From positions 1 to 14,264 of the forward strand of contig JAEOTL010000383.1 in NCBI GenBank assembly GCA_016839845.1: a stretch of 14,264 nt of DNA, read 5' to 3'. A program made the position numbers and the translations under genes. This DNA is from Promethearchaeota archaeon (GTDB taxonomy: Archaea; Asgardarchaeota; Lokiarchaeia; Sigynarchaeales; SOKP01). Below are positions 1,068 to 11,794 of the stretch, piece by piece (the first letter of the stretch is position 1; every line of letters begins with the position of its first letter). Under the pieces are notes generated by a model, which saw only the letters and a program-made list of their open reading frames with translations, did not search any database and was not told the origin of the DNA.

Positions 1068-2156
1068 ATGAATAGAGAAGATGTTCCATTATCACATGCG
1101 GGGATGGCTTCAGAAATCGAGCTTCAAGAGCAATACTATAACGAAGGCAAAATCTTTATCCTTCAGATTGAGTCTACTTTAAAGTGTCCACAGTTATGTG
1201 ATTACTGTTATGCTGGAAGCACACCTGATAGTCCACATGGTATGGCTTCTGAAAAGATTAAAGAATTGTTAGATACATCATCTAAACTAGGGATTCGCAT
1301 GATAGACTGGTTAGGAGGAGATCCTCTAGTCAGAAAGGATTGGTATGAACTATGCAAATATACATCTAGTTTAGGTTTAATTAATAATATTTGGACCAGT
1401 GGTATCCCACTGGCAAATCCCGAGATAGCAAAGAAAGCCGTAGAAGTAACTGAAGGAGGATTTATCTCGACACATCTAGATACATTTAATGCAGAGTTAT
1501 ATGGTATATTGCATGGGGGAGAAGGGTGTGATGGAAATCCGAGAAATATAGAGCTAATTCTTAACGGAATTAAAAATGTACTATCTGAAGGGAAAGATCC
1601 GGGTGCAATGGTTAATTGTATTACTTACACATCCCCTCTAGCAGAGGGAGATGCAAAGGGTATGATTTCTTATTTTCAAGAAGAATTTGGAATCAAAACT
1701 TGTCTAACATTATTTAATCCGGTCATTCATCGTAATGCTAACGCCTCTTGGGAACCCAGCATTACCCAAATTGAAGACGCATTTTCACATCGAGATACGG
1801 TAAATTATCCTGACGATCCTTCATGTGGTCCGATGGATGTATCAAAATTTTATTGTGGAACCGTAGTTTGTATAACAAGTGATGGTTGGTTAACTCCTTG
1901 CTCAGTTATTCGAACAGAAGAATTTGGTAATGTGAATGATGAGAAACTTGAAGTATTGATTGAAAGAACTAAAAGAAGACTTCTCCTCTTAGACTTTAGA
2001 GATCCTTCTAACCTTCCCGGAAATTGTGGGAAATGTTCTAATAATTCGTTCTGTTTTGGATGTAGAAGCAGTGCCTACTACTATGAAGGAGATATATTAG
2101 CTGCTGATCCAAAATGCTATCAATTCAGTCCTAATACTCAAAAAGAACAAGATTAA
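1068..2156 (+). CDS. Radical SAM/SPASM domain protein
   Basis: This 362-residue enzyme should cleave S-adenosylmethionine with a [4Fe-4S] cluster to start radical chemistry on an unknown substrate. The radical SAM cluster motif CxxxCxxC is C40, C44, C47 in CPQLCDYCYA, and the SAM-contacting GGDP (family GGEP) is at 83-86. The C-terminal third is a SPASM/twitch region for auxiliary clusters: C263-x9-G273-x4-C278, then C320-x2-C323-x5-C329-x2-C332, and C350. The final spacing is x2 where the SPASM consensus is usually x3. SPASM enzymes modify peptides, proteins or small molecules. No N-terminal RRE-like peptide-binding domain is apparent, and no precursor peptide lies in the adjacent gaps. It is the first gene of a four-gene plus-strand cluster; the methyltransferase follows after 36 bp. 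No strong Shine-Dalgarno site precedes the ATG, and an A/T-rich TATA-like stretch lies about 30-40 bp upstream. Confidence 0.93.
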   Translation: MNREDVPLSHAGMASEIELQEQYYNEGKIFILQIESTLKCPQLCDYCYAGSTPDSPHGMASEKIKELLDTSSKLGIRMIDWLGGDPLVRKDWYELCKYTSSLGLINNIWTSGIPLANPEIAKKAVEVTEGGFISTHLDTFNAELYGILHGGEGCDGNPRNIELILNGIKNVLSEGKDPGAMVNCITYTSPLAEGDAKGMISYFQEEFGIKTCLTLFNPVIHRNANASWEPSITQIEDAFSHRDTVNYPDDPSCGPMDVSKFYCGTVVCITSDGWLTPCSVIRTEEFGNVNDEKLEVLIERTKRRLLLLDFRDPSNLPGNCGKCSNNSFCFGCRSSAYYYEGDILAADPKCYQFSPNTQKEQD

Positions 2157-2192
2157 TATTAAAAAGGGAATTAAAAATTAAAAGTAAATAGT

Positions 2193-2996
2193 ATGAATAG
2201 AAAAACGTATAAGTTCTCGGTTTGGGATGTAAGTGAAGTATATGCCGGTCCTGGGGGTAAACTCTGGGAGTTCTTAATGGGTGAACAAATCCATGTGGGG
2301 GGTGCAGATCAAACTGATGTGTTGGCGAAAAAAGTTGGACTTGATAAAAAGAAAGACATATATCTTTTAGATATATGTTCTGCGTTAGGTGGTCCCGCAA
2401 GACATTTAGCAGAAAATTATGGAACTAAAGTTATTGGATTAGATATAACTCCTGAAATGGTACAAGAAGCTAAAAAACGAACAGAAGGAAAATCCTATGC
2501 AGATAAAATTGAATATAGGATAGGTTCAGCCTTAGACATACCCGCACAAGCAAACACTTTCGATGTTGTTTGGGGTCAAGATGCTTGGTGCTATATAAGA
2601 GATAAACTAAGACTTTTGGAAGAAATTAATAGGGTATTGAAACCAGGGGGTATTTTAGGCTTTACCGATTGGATTTGGGGATCTAGTGTAGCACCCGAGG
2701 GCAAAGCAGATTATTTAATGGAGTTTATGGTATTCCCCGATTTAGAAACACTTGATGGGTATGAGAATCTTATTAAGAGCTTAGGGATGGCCGTTGAGGA
2801 AAAAGAAGATTTAGGTGAGGATTTTGCCAAACATATGGATCTCTATGTTTCGATACTTCAAAAAAATAAAGAAAATATTATTGAAGGATTTGGAATAGAT
2901 TTATATAATGAAGCAGAAAAGGGAGTGCTGGCTTGGCAGAACGCAGCTCATAATAGATGGGTAAGTAGGGGTTCATGGATCGCGAAAAAACCTTAA
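2193..2996 (+). CDS. SAM-dependent methyltransferase, sarcosine/dimethylglycine methyltransferase-like
   Basis: This is a 267-residue class I methyltransferase. The N-terminal part (WEFLMGEQIHVGG, 25-37) and WGQDAWCYIRDK (127-138) resemble glycine/sarcosine/dimethylglycine N-methyltransferases and related UbiE-type enzymes. SAM motif I is at 58-67 but reads LLDICSALGG rather than the usual LDLGCGxGG. The acidic residue of motif II is D84 (GLDIT), and LKPGG is at 149-153. Only two cysteines, C62 and C133, are present, so it lacks the conserved cysteine set of ArsM arsenite methyltransferases. It lies 36 bp after the radical SAM gene and 45 bp before the CofC-like transferase, so it probably methylates an intermediate or product of that pathway. 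The substrate is unknown, and an amine is only a guess from family resemblance. Confidence 0.9.
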   Translation: MNRKTYKFSVWDVSEVYAGPGGKLWEFLMGEQIHVGGADQTDVLAKKVGLDKKKDIYLLDICSALGGPARHLAENYGTKVIGLDITPEMVQEAKKRTEGKSYADKIEYRIGSALDIPAQANTFDVVWGQDAWCYIRDKLRLLEEINRVLKPGGILGFTDWIWGSSVAPEGKADYLMEFMVFPDLETLDGYENLIKSLGMAVEEKEDLGEDFAKHMDLYVSILQKNKENIIEGFGIDLYNEAEKGVLAWQNAAHNRWVSRGSWIAKKP

Positions 2997-3041
2997 ATTA
3001 TACAAAAAATATCAATAGATTAAAAATTTTAAACTTCTACT

Positions 3042-3836
3042 ATGGATTCTGCAATACTTATTTTTGCAAAAGTACCAATAACAGGTAAGGTAAAAACCCG
3101 GTTAACCCAGAATTCATGTTTAACAGATTCTGATTGCGCCAAAATTGCTGAAGCCATGCTTAAAGACACGATTAACTTAGCTTCTCAGACAGATGCGGAT
3201 AAAATCCAAATAGGATATTATCCTGAAGAGGAATTACATAAATTAAACGAGATAATTAACTGTGTGAGAACTCAAGGTTTTTTAAATAAACCCGTGGAGT
3301 TACTCCTTCAAACTGGATCAAATTTCGACCAACGGTTTGGATCAGTTGTACGGGAATCTTTTAAAAAGACGGTTTCATCATTTATCGGCTTAGGTGCTGA
3401 TTTACCGTTTTTAGATTACGAGATAATTAACACAGCTTTAGACCTCTTAACTCAAAAAAAGGGTGAGAATCCGGTAGTAATTGGTCCCTCTAGCGGGGGT
3501 GGTATATATCTCGTTGGTTTAACTAATGATTTTAATCCCAAATGGTTTTCTAGCTATCAGTTATTCCGGAGTGGAGTAGAATTATCTAGGTTTACAAACT
3601 TTTGTAGGAAGATGGAACTCCCTTTAATAACCCTTCCCCCCTATGGAGATATAGATCTTGAAGAGGATTTTATTTCTCTAATTTCCTATATTACTGCGCT
3701 AAAAAACTCAGAAAAAACTATCGGGTTTTACTTTCCTTATTATACTGATAAAATTATTGAGGAATTAAAACTTTACATAATTGAGGAACAAGACCAAACC
3801 CGTAGAAGAAAACTTGCGAAGAAAGGGGATAATTAA
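3042..3836 (+). CDS. TIGR04282-type (DUF2064, CofC-like) glycosyl/nucleotidyltransferase
   Basis: This 264-residue protein has a Rossmann-like CofC/GT-A fold. Hallmarks are FAKVPITGKVKTRL at 8-21 (the family's nucleotide-binding start), LQTGSNFDQRF at 89-99, GADLP at 118-122, GPSSGGGIYLVGL at 148-160, and DIDLEEDF at 203-210. The family is known as 'rSAM/selenodomain-associated transferase 1' because it travels with radical SAM enzymes. Relatives act on sugar or phospho-acid groups with nucleotide donors. One oddity is that the usual DGGYYL of this family reads GGGIYL here, so the conserved Asp is replaced by Gly152. The charged tail after about residue 225 extends past the usual core. The gene is 5 bp upstream of the GT2 gene, so the two are probably co-translated and work in sequence. 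Confidence 0.9.
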   Translation: MDSAILIFAKVPITGKVKTRLTQNSCLTDSDCAKIAEAMLKDTINLASQTDADKIQIGYYPEEELHKLNEIINCVRTQGFLNKPVELLLQTGSNFDQRFGSVVRESFKKTVSSFIGLGADLPFLDYEIINTALDLLTQKKGENPVVIGPSSGGGIYLVGLTNDFNPKWFSSYQLFRSGVELSRFTNFCRKMELPLITLPPYGDIDLEEDFISLISYITALKNSEKTIGFYFPYYTDKIIEELKLYIIEEQDQTRRRKLAKKGDN

Positions 3837-3841
3837 TAATC

Positions 3842-4615
3842 ATGCTGGTAACTGTAATTATAATTACCTTGAATGAAGCTGATAATATTGAAAAAACAAT
3901 CAGACAAGCTCGCTTAGCTGCTCAATTTCCCTCAGGAAAAACAGTTCCATTTGAAATAATTGTAAGTGATGGTGGATCTAAGGATGGTACTCTTGAGATC
4001 GCGCGAAATCTTGCGGATAGGGTGATCACTGGAACCAGAGGAAGGTATTTACAATTAAATAGAGGAGCAGCAGAGGCACGGGGGGATGTTTTGGTATTCC
4101 TACATGCCGATACACTTTTACCTGAAGGTGCTATTATCCGAATTCTTTCTAAATTAAGAGATCCCGATGTCATTGGAGGAGGTTTTAAAAAATATTGGGA
4201 TTGGAGTAATAATGTTCAATTATCTTCACTTGTAAAATTTGCAGCCTACTGGTGGCAAGGATTGGATAGTTGGCTTGTGAGATTGCTAAGAACGTTTCCA
4301 GGAGATAATGCTGTTTTTGTTCGTAGATCCATTTTCGAAAAAATTAAAGGATTTCGTCCCATGTGGATTTGTGAGGATTTTGATTTTTCGTATCGATTGA
4401 TAAAATACGGAAAGAAAAAATTTGTATATATTCGTTCAGCTGTGCTTACCTCAACAAGGCGATTTGAAAAATACGGATTTTTTAATGTGGTTTTCACATG
4501 GATGCGAATTTTTTGGTTTTGGCGTTTAGGAATGTCCCAGAAGCATTTGAGAGATAGATTTCTTCAATACAAAACTATCCCCGAAAAAGGGAATAAGACC
4601 TACTTAAGATTTTGA
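3842..4615 (+). CDS. TIGR04283-type GT2 family glycosyltransferase
   Basis: This 257-residue GT-A glycosyltransferase is of the type called 'rSAM/selenodomain-associated transferase 2', related to the mycofactocin glycosyltransferase MftF. Visible motifs are VIIITLNEADNI (5-16), SDGGSKDGT (42-50, nucleotide-sugar binding), RGRYLQLNRGA (66-76), FLHADT (86-91, with the metal-binding HAD), PGDNAVFVRR (153-162), the acidic CEDFD (177-181, catalytic base region) and TSTRRFEKYG (203-212). The C-terminal aromatic stretch at 213-230 probably sits on or in the membrane. It should transfer a sugar from a nucleotide donor onto the pathway product. It ends in TGA at 4613-4615, the only TGA stop among the complete genes here. 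It is the last gene of the cluster, convergent with the gene ending at 4668. The short gap between them holds only a weak T5 at 4639-4643. Confidence 0.92.
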   Translation: MLVTVIIITLNEADNIEKTIRQARLAAQFPSGKTVPFEIIVSDGGSKDGTLEIARNLADRVITGTRGRYLQLNRGAAEARGDVLVFLHADTLLPEGAIIRILSKLRDPDVIGGGFKKYWDWSNNVQLSSLVKFAAYWWQGLDSWLVRLLRTFPGDNAVFVRRSIFEKIKGFRPMWICEDFDFSYRLIKYGKKKFVYIRSAVLTSTRRFEKYGFFNVVFTWMRIFWFWRLGMSQKHLRDRFLQYKTIPEKGNKTYLRF

Positions 4616-9003: not shown

Positions 9004-9071
9004 TTGCCATTAACATATTTTTATGCCTCTAAAGGATCCTATAGATTCATCTTAGTATAAAGGTAAGATTA

Positions 9072-9932
9072 TTACGCTCTAGTAATAATTTTCCGTTCTA
9101 TATTCATTGTTTCTAATTCAATTAAAACGTAAATTAAGGAATCTTGGTCTTGACGGAATTGACCAGGTTGAATGCATATTGTTTCACCCAATTTTGAAAA
9201 CCATATACCGGAGACATCAGGAGATTCATGAATATGACCATGAAGTGATAATTTTGGATGGTTTTTCTTGAGAAATTCATATTCCGCTGTTGATCCCACC
9301 CTTCGACCATCAAAAACTACATCGAGTTCTAAATTAGCGGGAGGATTATGGAAAATATAAATAGTATTACTCATATCGGAAGGTTTTACGAGATTGTTAA
9401 TCTCATCTTCAATTGTAGGGAGTGTTTCTGCATATGAAAACCAATCATCAAGTCTCTTGAATCCATCTGGTATAGACAGGTATTGTTTCCCGATTTGCTT
9501 AGGAAATTCAAAATCTTCAGTATCTTTACGGGCCCTATCCTTTAACCCAAACGGCAAATCAGAAACCCAATTCATTCCGATAAATTCATACTTACTACTT
9601 TCAACCGAGAACTTCTTTTGAGCCATATTAACTACATAAGAATACTTATCACACGTTTGTTGAAATAGAACATCAAATATCCTTAAATCATCATTTCCTA
9701 ATAATCCCAAATAATAGATTCCCATCGATTCAAACTTCGAAAAATAGTCATCAAGAAATCCAGTAATAAACTTATCTTGATGCAATAAATTACCTTTAAA
9801 AGGGAGCATATCACCGCCATTAATTACCACATCTGGCTTTAATTTGGTAGCTATATTGAGGACTTCCGTGTGCTTCCACTCGATCCCGTGAATATCAGTT
9901 ACATACAATATTTTCATAGCAAGTTTAAGCAT
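9072..9932 (-). CDS. Calcineurin-like metallophosphoesterase
   Basis: This 286-residue soluble protein has the two-metal phosphoesterase motifs in order: D13-x-H15 (YVTDIHG), GGD at 39-41, GNDD at 79-82, H195 in IFHNPP, and GHIH at 232-235 (LHGHIHESP). The third motif is usually GNH(D/E); here D81 replaces the His that often acts as proton donor, as seen in some other stand-alone phosphoesterases. The substrate cannot be told from sequence; phosphodiesters such as nucleotides or nucleic acid ends are typical. The frame opens at ATG 9932, but the natural family start is MKILYVTDIHG at residue 6 (ATG 9917). A TATA-like minus-strand stretch near 9949-9958 would place transcription start around 9928, which also favours the inner ATG. 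A hairpin terminator separates it from the upstream DUF6512-like gene. Confidence 0.9.
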   Translation of the reverse strand: MLKLAMKILYVTDIHGIEWKHTEVLNIATKLKPDVVINGGDMLPFKGNLLHQDKFITGFLDDYFSKFESMGIYYLGLLGNDDLRIFDVLFQQTCDKYSYVVNMAQKKFSVESSKYEFIGMNWVSDLPFGLKDRARKDTEDFEFPKQIGKQYLSIPDGFKRLDDWFSYAETLPTIEDEINNLVKPSDMSNTIYIFHNPPANLELDVVFDGRRVGSTAEYEFLKKNHPKLSLHGHIHESPDVSGIWFSKLGETICIQPGQFRQDQDSLIYVLIELETMNIERKIITRA

Positions 9933-10063: not shown

Positions 10064-10633
10064 CTAATGCACGTGTTTTACAATTCCATACAATCCTGTT
10101 TCAGAATCTTGGAAAATGGGTAATAAGGGAGGAAAATATGTAAACAACATATAAACTATTCCCAGAGAAATAAAGGATATTATTGCTATCCAGGAAATTC
10201 GCTTAGATATTTGACGAAATCCCATGATTTTATAACTAAGAATCTGCCCGATCAGTATGAATATATAGAAACTGATTATATCTATTGCTAATAACTCTAT
10301 TCCAAAGATCGTCGTATAGGAATAGAAGAACAAGACCGTCATTACTGGTACCAAGAACGCTACCCCAGTTTTCGCAATAATTATATTATTTGCCTTATCC
10401 TTGATATATCTATATTCTATTAATGAATATAAGATCAGTGGCCAATATGATAATTTTAGATGCTCCCATACACTCTCATTTACTGCAGCAATTACCCCAA
10501 CAGGTGCCCAATATCCCGTCCATTCAAATACAAAATGCAGTAAGGAACCCATAAGAAAAATAAAATGCCCCCCTACTATCTGCCATTTCAATAGTGTATT
10601 TTTCATTTTATCTTTAACCTTATTTTTTTCCAT
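10064..10633 (-). CDS. DUF6512-like integral membrane protein
   Basis: This 189-residue membrane protein has about five helices, near 17-36, 62-77, 84-105, 112-134 and 146-166. The signature NESVWEHLKL at 52-61, after an LLHFVFEWTG segment (31-40), and the ending FPPLLPIFQDSETGLYGI (167-184) agree with what I remember of the DUF6512 family. The function of that family is unknown. The start codon lies 14 bp inside the end of the upstream methyltransferase gene, so the two are translationally coupled and probably act together. The stop is TAG, followed by a hairpin terminator. An upstream Lys-rich N-terminus fits a cytoplasmic start. The family name is from memory and not from a database search. 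Confidence 0.8.
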   Translation of the reverse strand: MEKNKVKDKMKNTLLKWQIVGGHFIFLMGSLLHFVFEWTGYWAPVGVIAAVNESVWEHLKLSYWPLILYSLIEYRYIKDKANNIIIAKTGVAFLVPVMTVLFFYSYTTIFGIELLAIDIISFYIFILIGQILSYKIMGFRQISKRISWIAIISFISLGIVYMLFTYFPPLLPIFQDSETGLYGIVKHVH

Positions 10634-11219
10634 AAATCCAATATTGGTGTTCTCCTCCTCTCTCTAAAACTCCTTGAAATATTATGGAAAATCCAGCATC
10701 CTTCACGAGACTTAAAGTCTTTTTAGGACTATTGTTGCTCCAAAACATTGGTACTCCGAAAAAATTACTTCTTCCTTCAGATTCGGACACACCTGAATTA
10801 ATCATTAAAATTCCTCCAGGCTTCAAAAGTTCATAAGCTTTTTTGAATATACGGAAATGGTCTCCCTTTGGGACATGAAATAAGGCATAAACACTTATAA
10901 TTCCATCAAATGAGTTTTCATCAAATTTTAAATCGTTCATATCCATTTTGATGAATTTTCCATCCGTAACATTCTTACGAGCTAAATTTAGCATTGTATC
11001 CGATAAATCTATTCCTGTTACTTTTATTCCCCTTTCTGTTAAGAATTTTGCTGTTGGAATACCTGCACCACACCCTAATTCTAAAACATGAGCATTTTGG
11101 GGGAGTAGAGACGCAAATTTTTCTAATTCGCTATCGAACTTACTTAAGTTCCTATGGCTATAATAATCTTCAGCAATTTTATTATATCCTTGCTCCACTA
11201 ATTTACTAATCTCATTCAT
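10620..11219 (-). CDS. Class I SAM-dependent methyltransferase
   Basis: This 199-residue protein has the Methyltransf_11/25 type of fold. SAM motif I is VLELGCGAG at 45-53, the ribose-binding acid is D71 (VTGIDLS), a motif III-like KMDMNDL is at 91-97, FHVPKGDH is at 114-121, and LLKPGG is at 131-136. The N-terminal GYNKIAEDYYSHR (11-23) is the usual lead-in helix of small-molecule methyltransferases. The substrate is unknown. The last 14 bp overlap the DUF6512-like gene, so the pair forms an operon. An 8-bp inverted repeat lies three bases upstream of the ATG and may be an operator. It differs from the cluster methyltransferase at 2193 in length and motif I, so it is not a recent duplicate. 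Confidence 0.92.
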   Translation of the reverse strand: MNEISKLVEQGYNKIAEDYYSHRNLSKFDSELEKFASLLPQNAHVLELGCGAGIPTAKFLTERGIKVTGIDLSDTMLNLARKNVTDGKFIKMDMNDLKFDENSFDGIISVYALFHVPKGDHFRIFKKAYELLKPGGILMINSGVSESEGRSNFFGVPMFWSNNSPKKTLSLVKDAGFSIIFQGVLERGGEHQYWIYGKK

Positions 11220-11329: not shown

Positions 11330-11794
11330 TTAACAAGAAATATCTTTAACCTGTCCATAATTATCGATTCTATTATATTTTTTTTTATTCGATTGGAAAT
11401 GTACCCTAACCTGAGAATTTTCGAGTGCTGGTGTTTCCTCTATAATTTTTTTATCTCCGTATCTGATAACCTCCAGAACGAGTGGTAAATGATGACAAAA
11501 GATTCTATCTCGTAAGGAAGCCCAACCAAAACAAAAACCTCCACTAACATGCATATAGAGGTGTAACTCGTAGTGATTGTTCGTTTTGATCCACTCGGCT
11601 AATACCTCATCTCTCATAAATCGAGTGTAAAGCCCTGAGATTTGCTCATAATCGTAATCTGATCCTATTGTAAGAAAAAGCTCTCCAGTTGAATCAGAAT
11701 GAGTTAATGTGTATTTTCGGGGTAATTCTAATTTGCCTTTAGCCGCTGAATCTTTATAGACAACATGTAATTTCTCAGGATTTAAATTAGACAT
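11330..11794 (-). CDS. STAY-GREEN (SGR) family protein, putative Mg-dechelatase homologue
   Basis: This 154-residue protein aligns end to end with the STAY-GREEN core. Plant SGR removes Mg from chlorophyll a, and some bacterial homologues show the same activity in vitro. Family signatures are LPRKYTLTHSDSTGEL (24-39), RDEVLAEW (61-68), LHLYMHVSGG (77-86), IFCHHLPLVLEVIRYGD (97-113), and VHFQSNKKKYNRIDNYG (130-146). H32, D34 and D62 are intact; from memory, residues at these positions are important in a bacterial SGR, which should be confirmed by alignment. It has no transit or signal peptide, so it is cytosolic. No chlorophyll genes are nearby, so its substrate here may be another metallated tetrapyrrole; this is inference. 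It is a single-gene unit with a TATA candidate at 11859-11867, 110 bp upstream of the next minus-strand gene. Confidence 0.9.
   Translation of the reverse strand: MSNLNPEKLHVVYKDSAAKGKLELPRKYTLTHSDSTGELFLTIGSDYDYEQISGLYTRFMRDEVLAEWIKTNNHYELHLYMHVSGGFCFGWASLRDRIFCHHLPLVLEVIRYGDKKIIEETPALENSQVRVHFQSNKKKYNRIDNYGQVKDISC

Follow-up and report, generated by a model that had tools for sequence, protein, structure and literature searches.

A conserved archaeal gene cassette that links a SPASM radical SAM enzyme and a methyltransferase to TIGR04282- and TIGR04283-like transferases

Introduction

Arsenosugar biosynthesis clusters combine the methyltransferase ArsM and the radical S-adenosylmethionine (SAM) enzyme ArsS with two transferases of the TIGR04282 and TIGR04283 families. 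Mycofactocin systems pair a SPASM-type radical SAM enzyme (MftC) with a GT2 glycosyltransferase (MftF). GMGT synthase and other archaeal radical SAM lipid enzymes exemplify radical SAM enzymes acting in lipid pathways. Here we describe a five-gene archaeal cassette carried by a 14,264-nucleotide stretch of DNA (the window; contig JAEOTL010000383.1 of the Promethearchaeota archaeon assembly GCA_016839845.1), which encodes a membrane protein (mem), a radical SAM/SPASM enzyme (rSAM), a methyltransferase (MT), and TIGR04282-like and TIGR04283-like enzymes (Table 1). The cassette resembles arsenosugar clusters in joining one SAM methyltransferase and one radical SAM enzyme to what are, at family level, the same two transferases; it differs in that its rSAM is not ArsS and its MT is not ArsM, in the extra membrane protein, in its archaeal hosts, and in the lack of ArsS in the genomes searched. 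It shares with mycofactocin systems the pairing of a SPASM radical SAM enzyme with a GT2 enzyme, and with GMGT synthase-type enzymes a radical SAM component, no specific sequence relation to the latter being shown (GMGT synthase, 7tol, is a 24-bit PDB match). No literature on the cassette was found among open-licence PMC papers. We give about even odds to the view that the five genes form one undescribed pathway, most likely making a single methylated, radical-modified unit that would be activated and then passed on to an acceptor bound to the membrane.

Architecture and Conservation of the Cassette

The five genes are separated by gaps of 75, 36, 45, and 5 bp. A preliminary description of this DNA had reported the last four, with the order and three gaps found here; its four-gene cluster is indeed conserved as one cluster, but the upstream mem gene had been overlooked.

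Table 1. Features of the window discussed in the text
Feature	Coordinates	Strand	Basis or remark
mem, polytopic membrane protein, 251 aa	237..992	+	without Pfam/NCBIfam family
rSAM, radical SAM/SPASM enzyme, 362 aa	1068..2156	+	Pfam/NCBIfam profile matches
MT, class I SAM methyltransferase, 267 aa, phosphoethanolamine N-methyltransferase (PMT) fold	2193..2996	+	Pfam/NCBIfam profiles, motifs
TIGR04282-like (DUF2064, CofC-like) nucleotidyltransferase-fold enzyme, 264 aa	3042..3836	+	profiles, kept residues
TIGR04283-like GT2 glycosyltransferase, 257 aa	3842..4615	+	profiles, kept residues
Open reading frame, 1239 aa	4668..8387	-	surface-protein look by eye
DUF6512 membrane protein	10064..10633	-	start overlaps end of the next gene
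Small methyltransferase gene	10620..11219		
Staygreen protein	11330..11794	-	PF12638, E 1.4e-49

A scan of genome contigs returned 17 loci, including (i) eleven metagenome-assembled genomes (MAGs) of Lokiarchaeota/Lokiarchaeia at 69-88% identity, the 88% match being a fragment and the best full-length one reaching 83%; (ii) three 'Methanomicrobia/Euryarchaeota' MAGs with peat or fen in their titles (67-68%); (iii) one Hodarchaeum (51%); and (iv) two further methanogen-type MAGs (41-42%), one of which, L017 (genome G008), is titled Methanomicrobiaceae and gives its order the label 'Methanomicrobiales-type' used below. The closest relative in the protein database is 98% identical and named Promethearchaeota. 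MT adjoins rSAM in all 17 loci. In the 12 Loki loci (the window, L001-L010, and L014) rSAM, MT, TIGR04282, and TIGR04283 are consecutive throughout, contig ends cutting the rSAM of L014 and the TIGR04283 of L006, and mem lies directly upstream of rSAM in ten, the other two (L007 and L014) being contig ends at that point. The 22 Methanomicrobiales-type loci display a divergent TIGR04283 gene just upstream (22/22), followed by mem (4/22), rSAM, MT, and TIGR04282 (21/22 at E ≤ 1e-5; L017 at 2e-4). Two genomes of the same phylum (G702 and G731) preserve mem-rSAM-MT-TIGR04282 up to a contig edge, with a TIGR04283 gene starting another contig. The cultured methanogen Methanosphaerula palustris carries the cassette, with all five genes together in L086, and the peat methanogens (L011-L013 and L144) keep rSAM-MT-TIGR04282. 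The Hodarchaeal loci (L015 and L088-L092) comprise a TsuA-like transporter (201/400, given here and below as bits/cut-off), an AglJ-like GT2, TIGR04282, a membrane GT2, MT, and rSAM, together with a weakly GT87-like protein (under the Pfam cut-off) and a DoxX-like protein, the latter encoded on the opposite strand; the AglJ/PpgS-like enzyme (100/325 and 60/370), like the genes around it, suggests an acceptor that is a lipid or a polyprenyl phosphate. TIGR04282 thus stands alongside rSAM and MT in 12/12 Loki loci, 3/3 peat methanogens, 5/5 Hodarchaea with sufficient contig reach, and 22/22 Methanomicrobiales-type loci (one weakly). Because order and adjacency are kept in both Asgard archaea and methanogens, the arrangement is not due to chance.

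Among 227 genomes of the Asgard phylum, rSAM was detected in 26 at E ≤ 1e-40 and in 19 at E ≤ 1e-100, a limit chosen after the list was seen, and MT (E ≤ 1e-25) in exactly the same 19 genomes and no other. In the order of G008 (199 genomes), 22 members contain rSAM, and these 22 also have MT at 45-49% identity, a second, more distant MT (34-38%) occurring in two of these and in four other genomes of the order. A sample of 392 genomes from the phylum of G008 yielded rSAM in 15 at E ≤ 1e-50. The distribution is thus patchy, and the cassette is accessory. The Asgard genome G253 retains a cassette-type rSAM fragment (L103, ~9017-9715; query residues 119-357) whose neighbours are shared with the cassette locus of genome G255, and no MT was found in it at E ≤ 1e-25, which looks like joint loss of rSAM and MT and a likely cassette remnant. 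The co-occurrence in relatives that the preliminary description proposed as a check is therefore observed for rSAM and MT; its attribution to an Asgard-like archaeon stands as regards the Lokiarchaeia-type origin, but the cassette is not Asgard-specific, extending to Methanomicrobiales-type and peat methanogens.

The Radical SAM Enzyme

rSAM comprises a Radical_SAM and a SPASM domain (TIGR04085, 29.0/27), with the core site C40xxxC44xxC47 and SPASM cysteines 263, 278, 320, 323, 329, 332, and 350; the core cysteines are kept in 53 of 55 aligned rows and the SPASM cysteines in all 55, some rows being fragments. Among the best 25 of 40 matching NCBIfam families, the top scores belong to AhbD (83.8/500) and NirJ2 (81.9/500), with TIGR04053 (79.4/395), PqqE (66.1/381), MftC (TIGR03962; 43.8/265), and ArsS (TIGR04167; 28.8/300) below. 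The enzyme is therefore close to AhbD/NirJ/PqqE-type SPASM enzymes in its best profile matches, yet lies far under their cut-offs of 381-500 and separate from AhbD-like proteins of the same genomes; identification as a characterized SPASM equivalog (AhbD, AhbC, NirJ, or PqqE) was rejected. The M. palustris rSAM behaves alike, with a best equivalog score of 92.1/500 (NirJ2). At E ≤ 1e-20, ArsS was found in none of 49 genomes, 47 of them with the cassette, whereas the control Synechococcus elongatus was detected. The TIGR04282 and TIGR04283 families, named for arsenosugar biosynthesis, thus serve here with a different radical SAM enzyme, as anticipated by the preliminary description, which had called rSAM not ArsS-like. 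The fit to a characterized enzyme that would have refuted that description is not seen in the profile scores, rSAM reaching none of the equivalog cut-offs among the 25 families.

Phylogenetic trees were built from the cassette relatives and from other radical SAM proteins encoded by those genomes, characterized reference enzymes being left out. In the maximum-likelihood tree of 53 relatives, 44 cassette rows form one clade (100/98), and three peat methanogen rows fall within its Asgard part (97/97), which suggests gene transfer between Asgard archaea and methanogens. When 26 further radical SAM rows from these genomes were included, a branch (100/99) set the cassette rows together with their MT-less cousins apart from everything else, but no branch divided the cassette rows alone from the rest. 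Considered by sequence alone, further homologues carry the names Methanoperedens, ANME-2, and Thermoplasmata, and one, which may reflect misbinning, is labelled 'Zixibacteria'.

Distant rSAM relatives occur in other settings. In L095 the gene adjoins a second radical SAM gene, YydG-like (69/300), the pair being uncharacterized and lying near a SufS-like desulfurase, and F40-family genes accompany the relatives in L094, L096, and L098. In four Loki loci (8373-9059 of L001 and its equivalents) a 228-aa protein, one end of which resembles the two-cluster ferredoxin part of QueG and reductive dehalogenases, is encoded directly upstream of mem, a possible electron donor to rSAM.

The Methyltransferase

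MT matches Methyltransf_11/25, and its best NCBIfam model is the sarcosine/dimethylglycine methyltransferase NF041675, as the preliminary description had it; nevertheless, the score of 86.9/550 led us to reject that assignment, and in structure the protein is closest to PMTs, whose fold it was found to share. Sequence alignment with the Plasmodium vivax PMT places D130 opposite PMT D128 and Tyr134 opposite His132. The phosphobase-binding residues of PfPMT (Y160, R179, Y181, and K247) are replaced by W160, F178, F181, and W248 in 44/44 relatives, the position of W248 being extrapolated just beyond the end of the printed alignment; the phosphate-binding set of PMTs is accordingly absent, setting the cassette enzyme apart from PfPMT and HcPMT2. 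MT carries the motif WGQD-[AS]-WCY, and C133, which adjoins the aligned active site, is the only invariant cysteine in 44 relatives. ArsM needs more than one cysteine, and the arsenite methyltransferase model gives 50.2/263, in agreement with the earlier statement that MT is not ArsM; the arsenosugar identity was thus rejected for this enzyme as for rSAM.

A second MT subfamily is found in Methanomicrobiales-type genomes (L151-L156), with a WGEDAWCY motif in most members and loss of the motif-I Asp, for which reason it may be without SAM binding. Its gene adjoins one for a 4-alpha-glucanotransferase, joined in some loci by a Pro_dh-like gene.

The Two Transferases and mem

The preliminary assignment of the transferases to TIGR04282 and TIGR04283 is qualified by the window proteins themselves, which score 102.2/134 and 170.4/182; relatives in the same slots pass, and we take the family-level assignment to hold on that ground. 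The M. palustris/L086 proteins reach 183/134 for TIGR04282 and 174.7/182, just under the cut-off, for TIGR04283, whereas the Asgard genome G362 (L146) encodes both as one fused 438-aa protein adjoining mem (187/134 and 219/182). TIGR04282-like relatives keep K18, R20, and L21 (39/40) as well as D120, P122, G153-G154, Y156-L157, D203, and D205 (40/40), a pattern as would be expected for an active nucleotidyltransferase-fold enzyme; identity with the 2-phospho-L-lactate guanylyltransferase CofC was rejected (TIGR03552, 30.8/105). TIGR04283-like relatives keep H88-x-D90, G154-D155, and E178-D179 (H88, D90, D155, E178, and D179 in 34/34), and the MftF model (TIGR03965) gives 33.7/280, so that, together with the MftC score, mycofactocin identity was rejected.

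Across the 49 genomes, TIGR04283 is matched at E ≤ 1e-15 in 40, the best match belonging to the cassette locus in 33, adjoining mem or starting a contig in G362, G702, and G731, and lying elsewhere in G255, G004, G005, and G455; it was not found at this threshold in nine (six Hodarchaeal, one peat methanogen, and two without MT). The family cut-off is exceeded in 25 genomes, 21 of them at the cassette. mem conserves D44, R46, W47, H49, N50, E113, H136, H147, R156, P177, E179, and E182 in 12 relatives, and all named homologues among the 120 matches listed are 'hypothetical protein'. The M. palustris mem (P0358) matches its L086 counterpart exactly from residue 2 onward.

Proposed Pathway and Alternatives

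What is observed comprises gene content, order, co-occurrence, Fe-S, SAM-binding, and GT-A-type motifs, fold, and one TIGR04282-TIGR04283 fusion; from these we infer every chemical step of the pathway. rSAM would abstract a hydrogen from, or carry out 5'-deoxyadenosyl chemistry on, a small substrate resembling a sugar, amino sugar, or nucleoside, and MT would methylate a nucleophile of the amine type, positioned by D130 and an aromatic box in place of the true-PMT phosphate site. The TIGR04282 enzyme may then turn the modified unit into an activated nucleotide derivative, the way CofC activates 2-phospholactate, for the GT2 enzyme (TIGR04283, or the AglJ-like polyprenyl-phosphate glycosyltransferase in Hodarchaea) to move it onto a lipid or polyprenyl carrier, and mem could act at the membrane on the lipid-linked product. 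The methylated, glycosylated small molecule of the preliminary description thus remains conjectural, the Hodarchaeal neighbourhood rather suggesting a polyprenyl, lipid, or glycan acceptor.

Several observations weigh against this pathway. Seven of the 26 Asgard rSAM genomes have no MT match, six carrying only the distant rSAM type and G253 also the cassette-type fragment; mem is limited to four of the 22 Methanomicrobiales-type loci; and both window transferases fall below their cut-offs. The Hodarchaeal TIGR04282 lies 4.3-6.9 kb from MT (5/5 loci whose contigs reach it), amid genes that may simply form an ordinary cluster for glycosylation. The peat methanogen cores are without adjoining mem or a good TIGR04283 where the contig allows (L013 is too short for TIGR04283), the best TIGR04283 matches in these genomes score weakly and lie away from the cassette, and an unrelated-looking 353-aa GT2 follows the core in L011 and L144. 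Moreover, the D130/aromatic-box view comes from aligning sequences and from the roles that residues have in PMTs.

Some of these points fit two independent functions side by side, in which rSAM and MT serve a cofactor or metabolite and TIGR04282/TIGR04283 form a separate glycolipid module: rSAM-MT is the only invariant part, and besides the distant Hodarchaeal TIGR04282 and the peat methanogens without a good TIGR04283, this family was not found in six of seven Hodarchaeal genomes and lies far from the cassette in the seventh (G255). The recurrence of TIGR04282 with rSAM and MT in Loki, peat methanogen, Hodarchaeal, and Methanomicrobiales-type loci, and of a divergent TIGR04283 just upstream in all 22 of the latter, makes such a division rather doubtful. 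We regard as unlikely a detoxification route to arsenosugars or other metalloid sugars by non-orthologous enzymes, where MT would methylate As (or Se/Sb), rSAM would add 5'-deoxyadenosyl as ArsS does, and the two transferases would finish the sugar. The same two families and the same logic of one methyltransferase, one radical SAM enzyme, and two transferases recommend it, as do the weak likeness of MT and rSAM to the arsenite methyltransferase and ArsS models, the invariant C133 beside the aligned active site, the patchy distribution, and a TsuA/YedE-like S/Se transporter near the Hodarchaeal version; it is opposed by the lack of ArsS from the genomes searched, by an MT nearest to N-methyltransferases with an Asp aligned to PMT D128 and a single invariant cysteine, and by the absence of arsenic genes among the annotated neighbours (annotation covered part of them).

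Synthesis of N-methylated aminopentanetetrol (APT) head groups of Methanomicrobiales phospholipids would suit a PMT-like N-methyltransferase, lipid-type transferases, and the presence in Methanomicrobiales-type genomes, but PMC2686161 describes APT as a property of the whole order, of which only 22/199 genomes carry the cassette, and Asgard archaea carry it too; we consider it very improbable. Equally little credence goes to a mycofactocin or other ribosomally synthesized peptide (RiPP) maturation variant with an overlooked short precursor. A SPASM enzyme stands here with a GT2 of some MftF likeness, and two PmbA/TldD-type peptidase genes, a type known from peptide maturation, lie ~3.6 kb beyond rSAM in the Hodarchaeal locus L015; the MftC and MftF scores remain far under their cut-offs, and the gaps within the operon could hardly accommodate a precursor.

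Other Genes in the Window

Three further genes lie downstream on the minus strand. The 1239-aa open reading frame shows a long Asn/Thr-rich part, one hydrophobic stretch, and a charged end. The DUF6512 protein is listed in Table 1, as is the Staygreen protein, a family that acts in chlorophyll breakdown in plants.

Implications

Through the cassette, two widely annotated orphan families of transferases become linked to a methyltransferase and a radical SAM clade, neither of which matches an NCBIfam equivalog, and the link spans Lokiarchaeia, Hodarchaea, and methanogens. As a speculative extension, to which we assign a small probability, it could be a non-arsenic counterpart of arsenosugar lipids in archaea, in which the new SPASM enzyme would join an N-methylated (or otherwise hetero-atom-methylated) unit to a ribose derived from 5'-deoxyadenosyl, TIGR04282 would activate the result, and TIGR04283/AglJ-like enzymes would place it on membrane lipids; TIGR04282/TIGR04283 would then be a general module for unusual 5-substituted ribosyl units, the arsenosugar being one case. 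With M. palustris as a carrier in culture, the question can be put to the test even where no Asgard archaeon is grown. Should the product be a membrane constituent, it would provide a new archaeal lipid or glycan marker common to Asgard archaea and methanogens.

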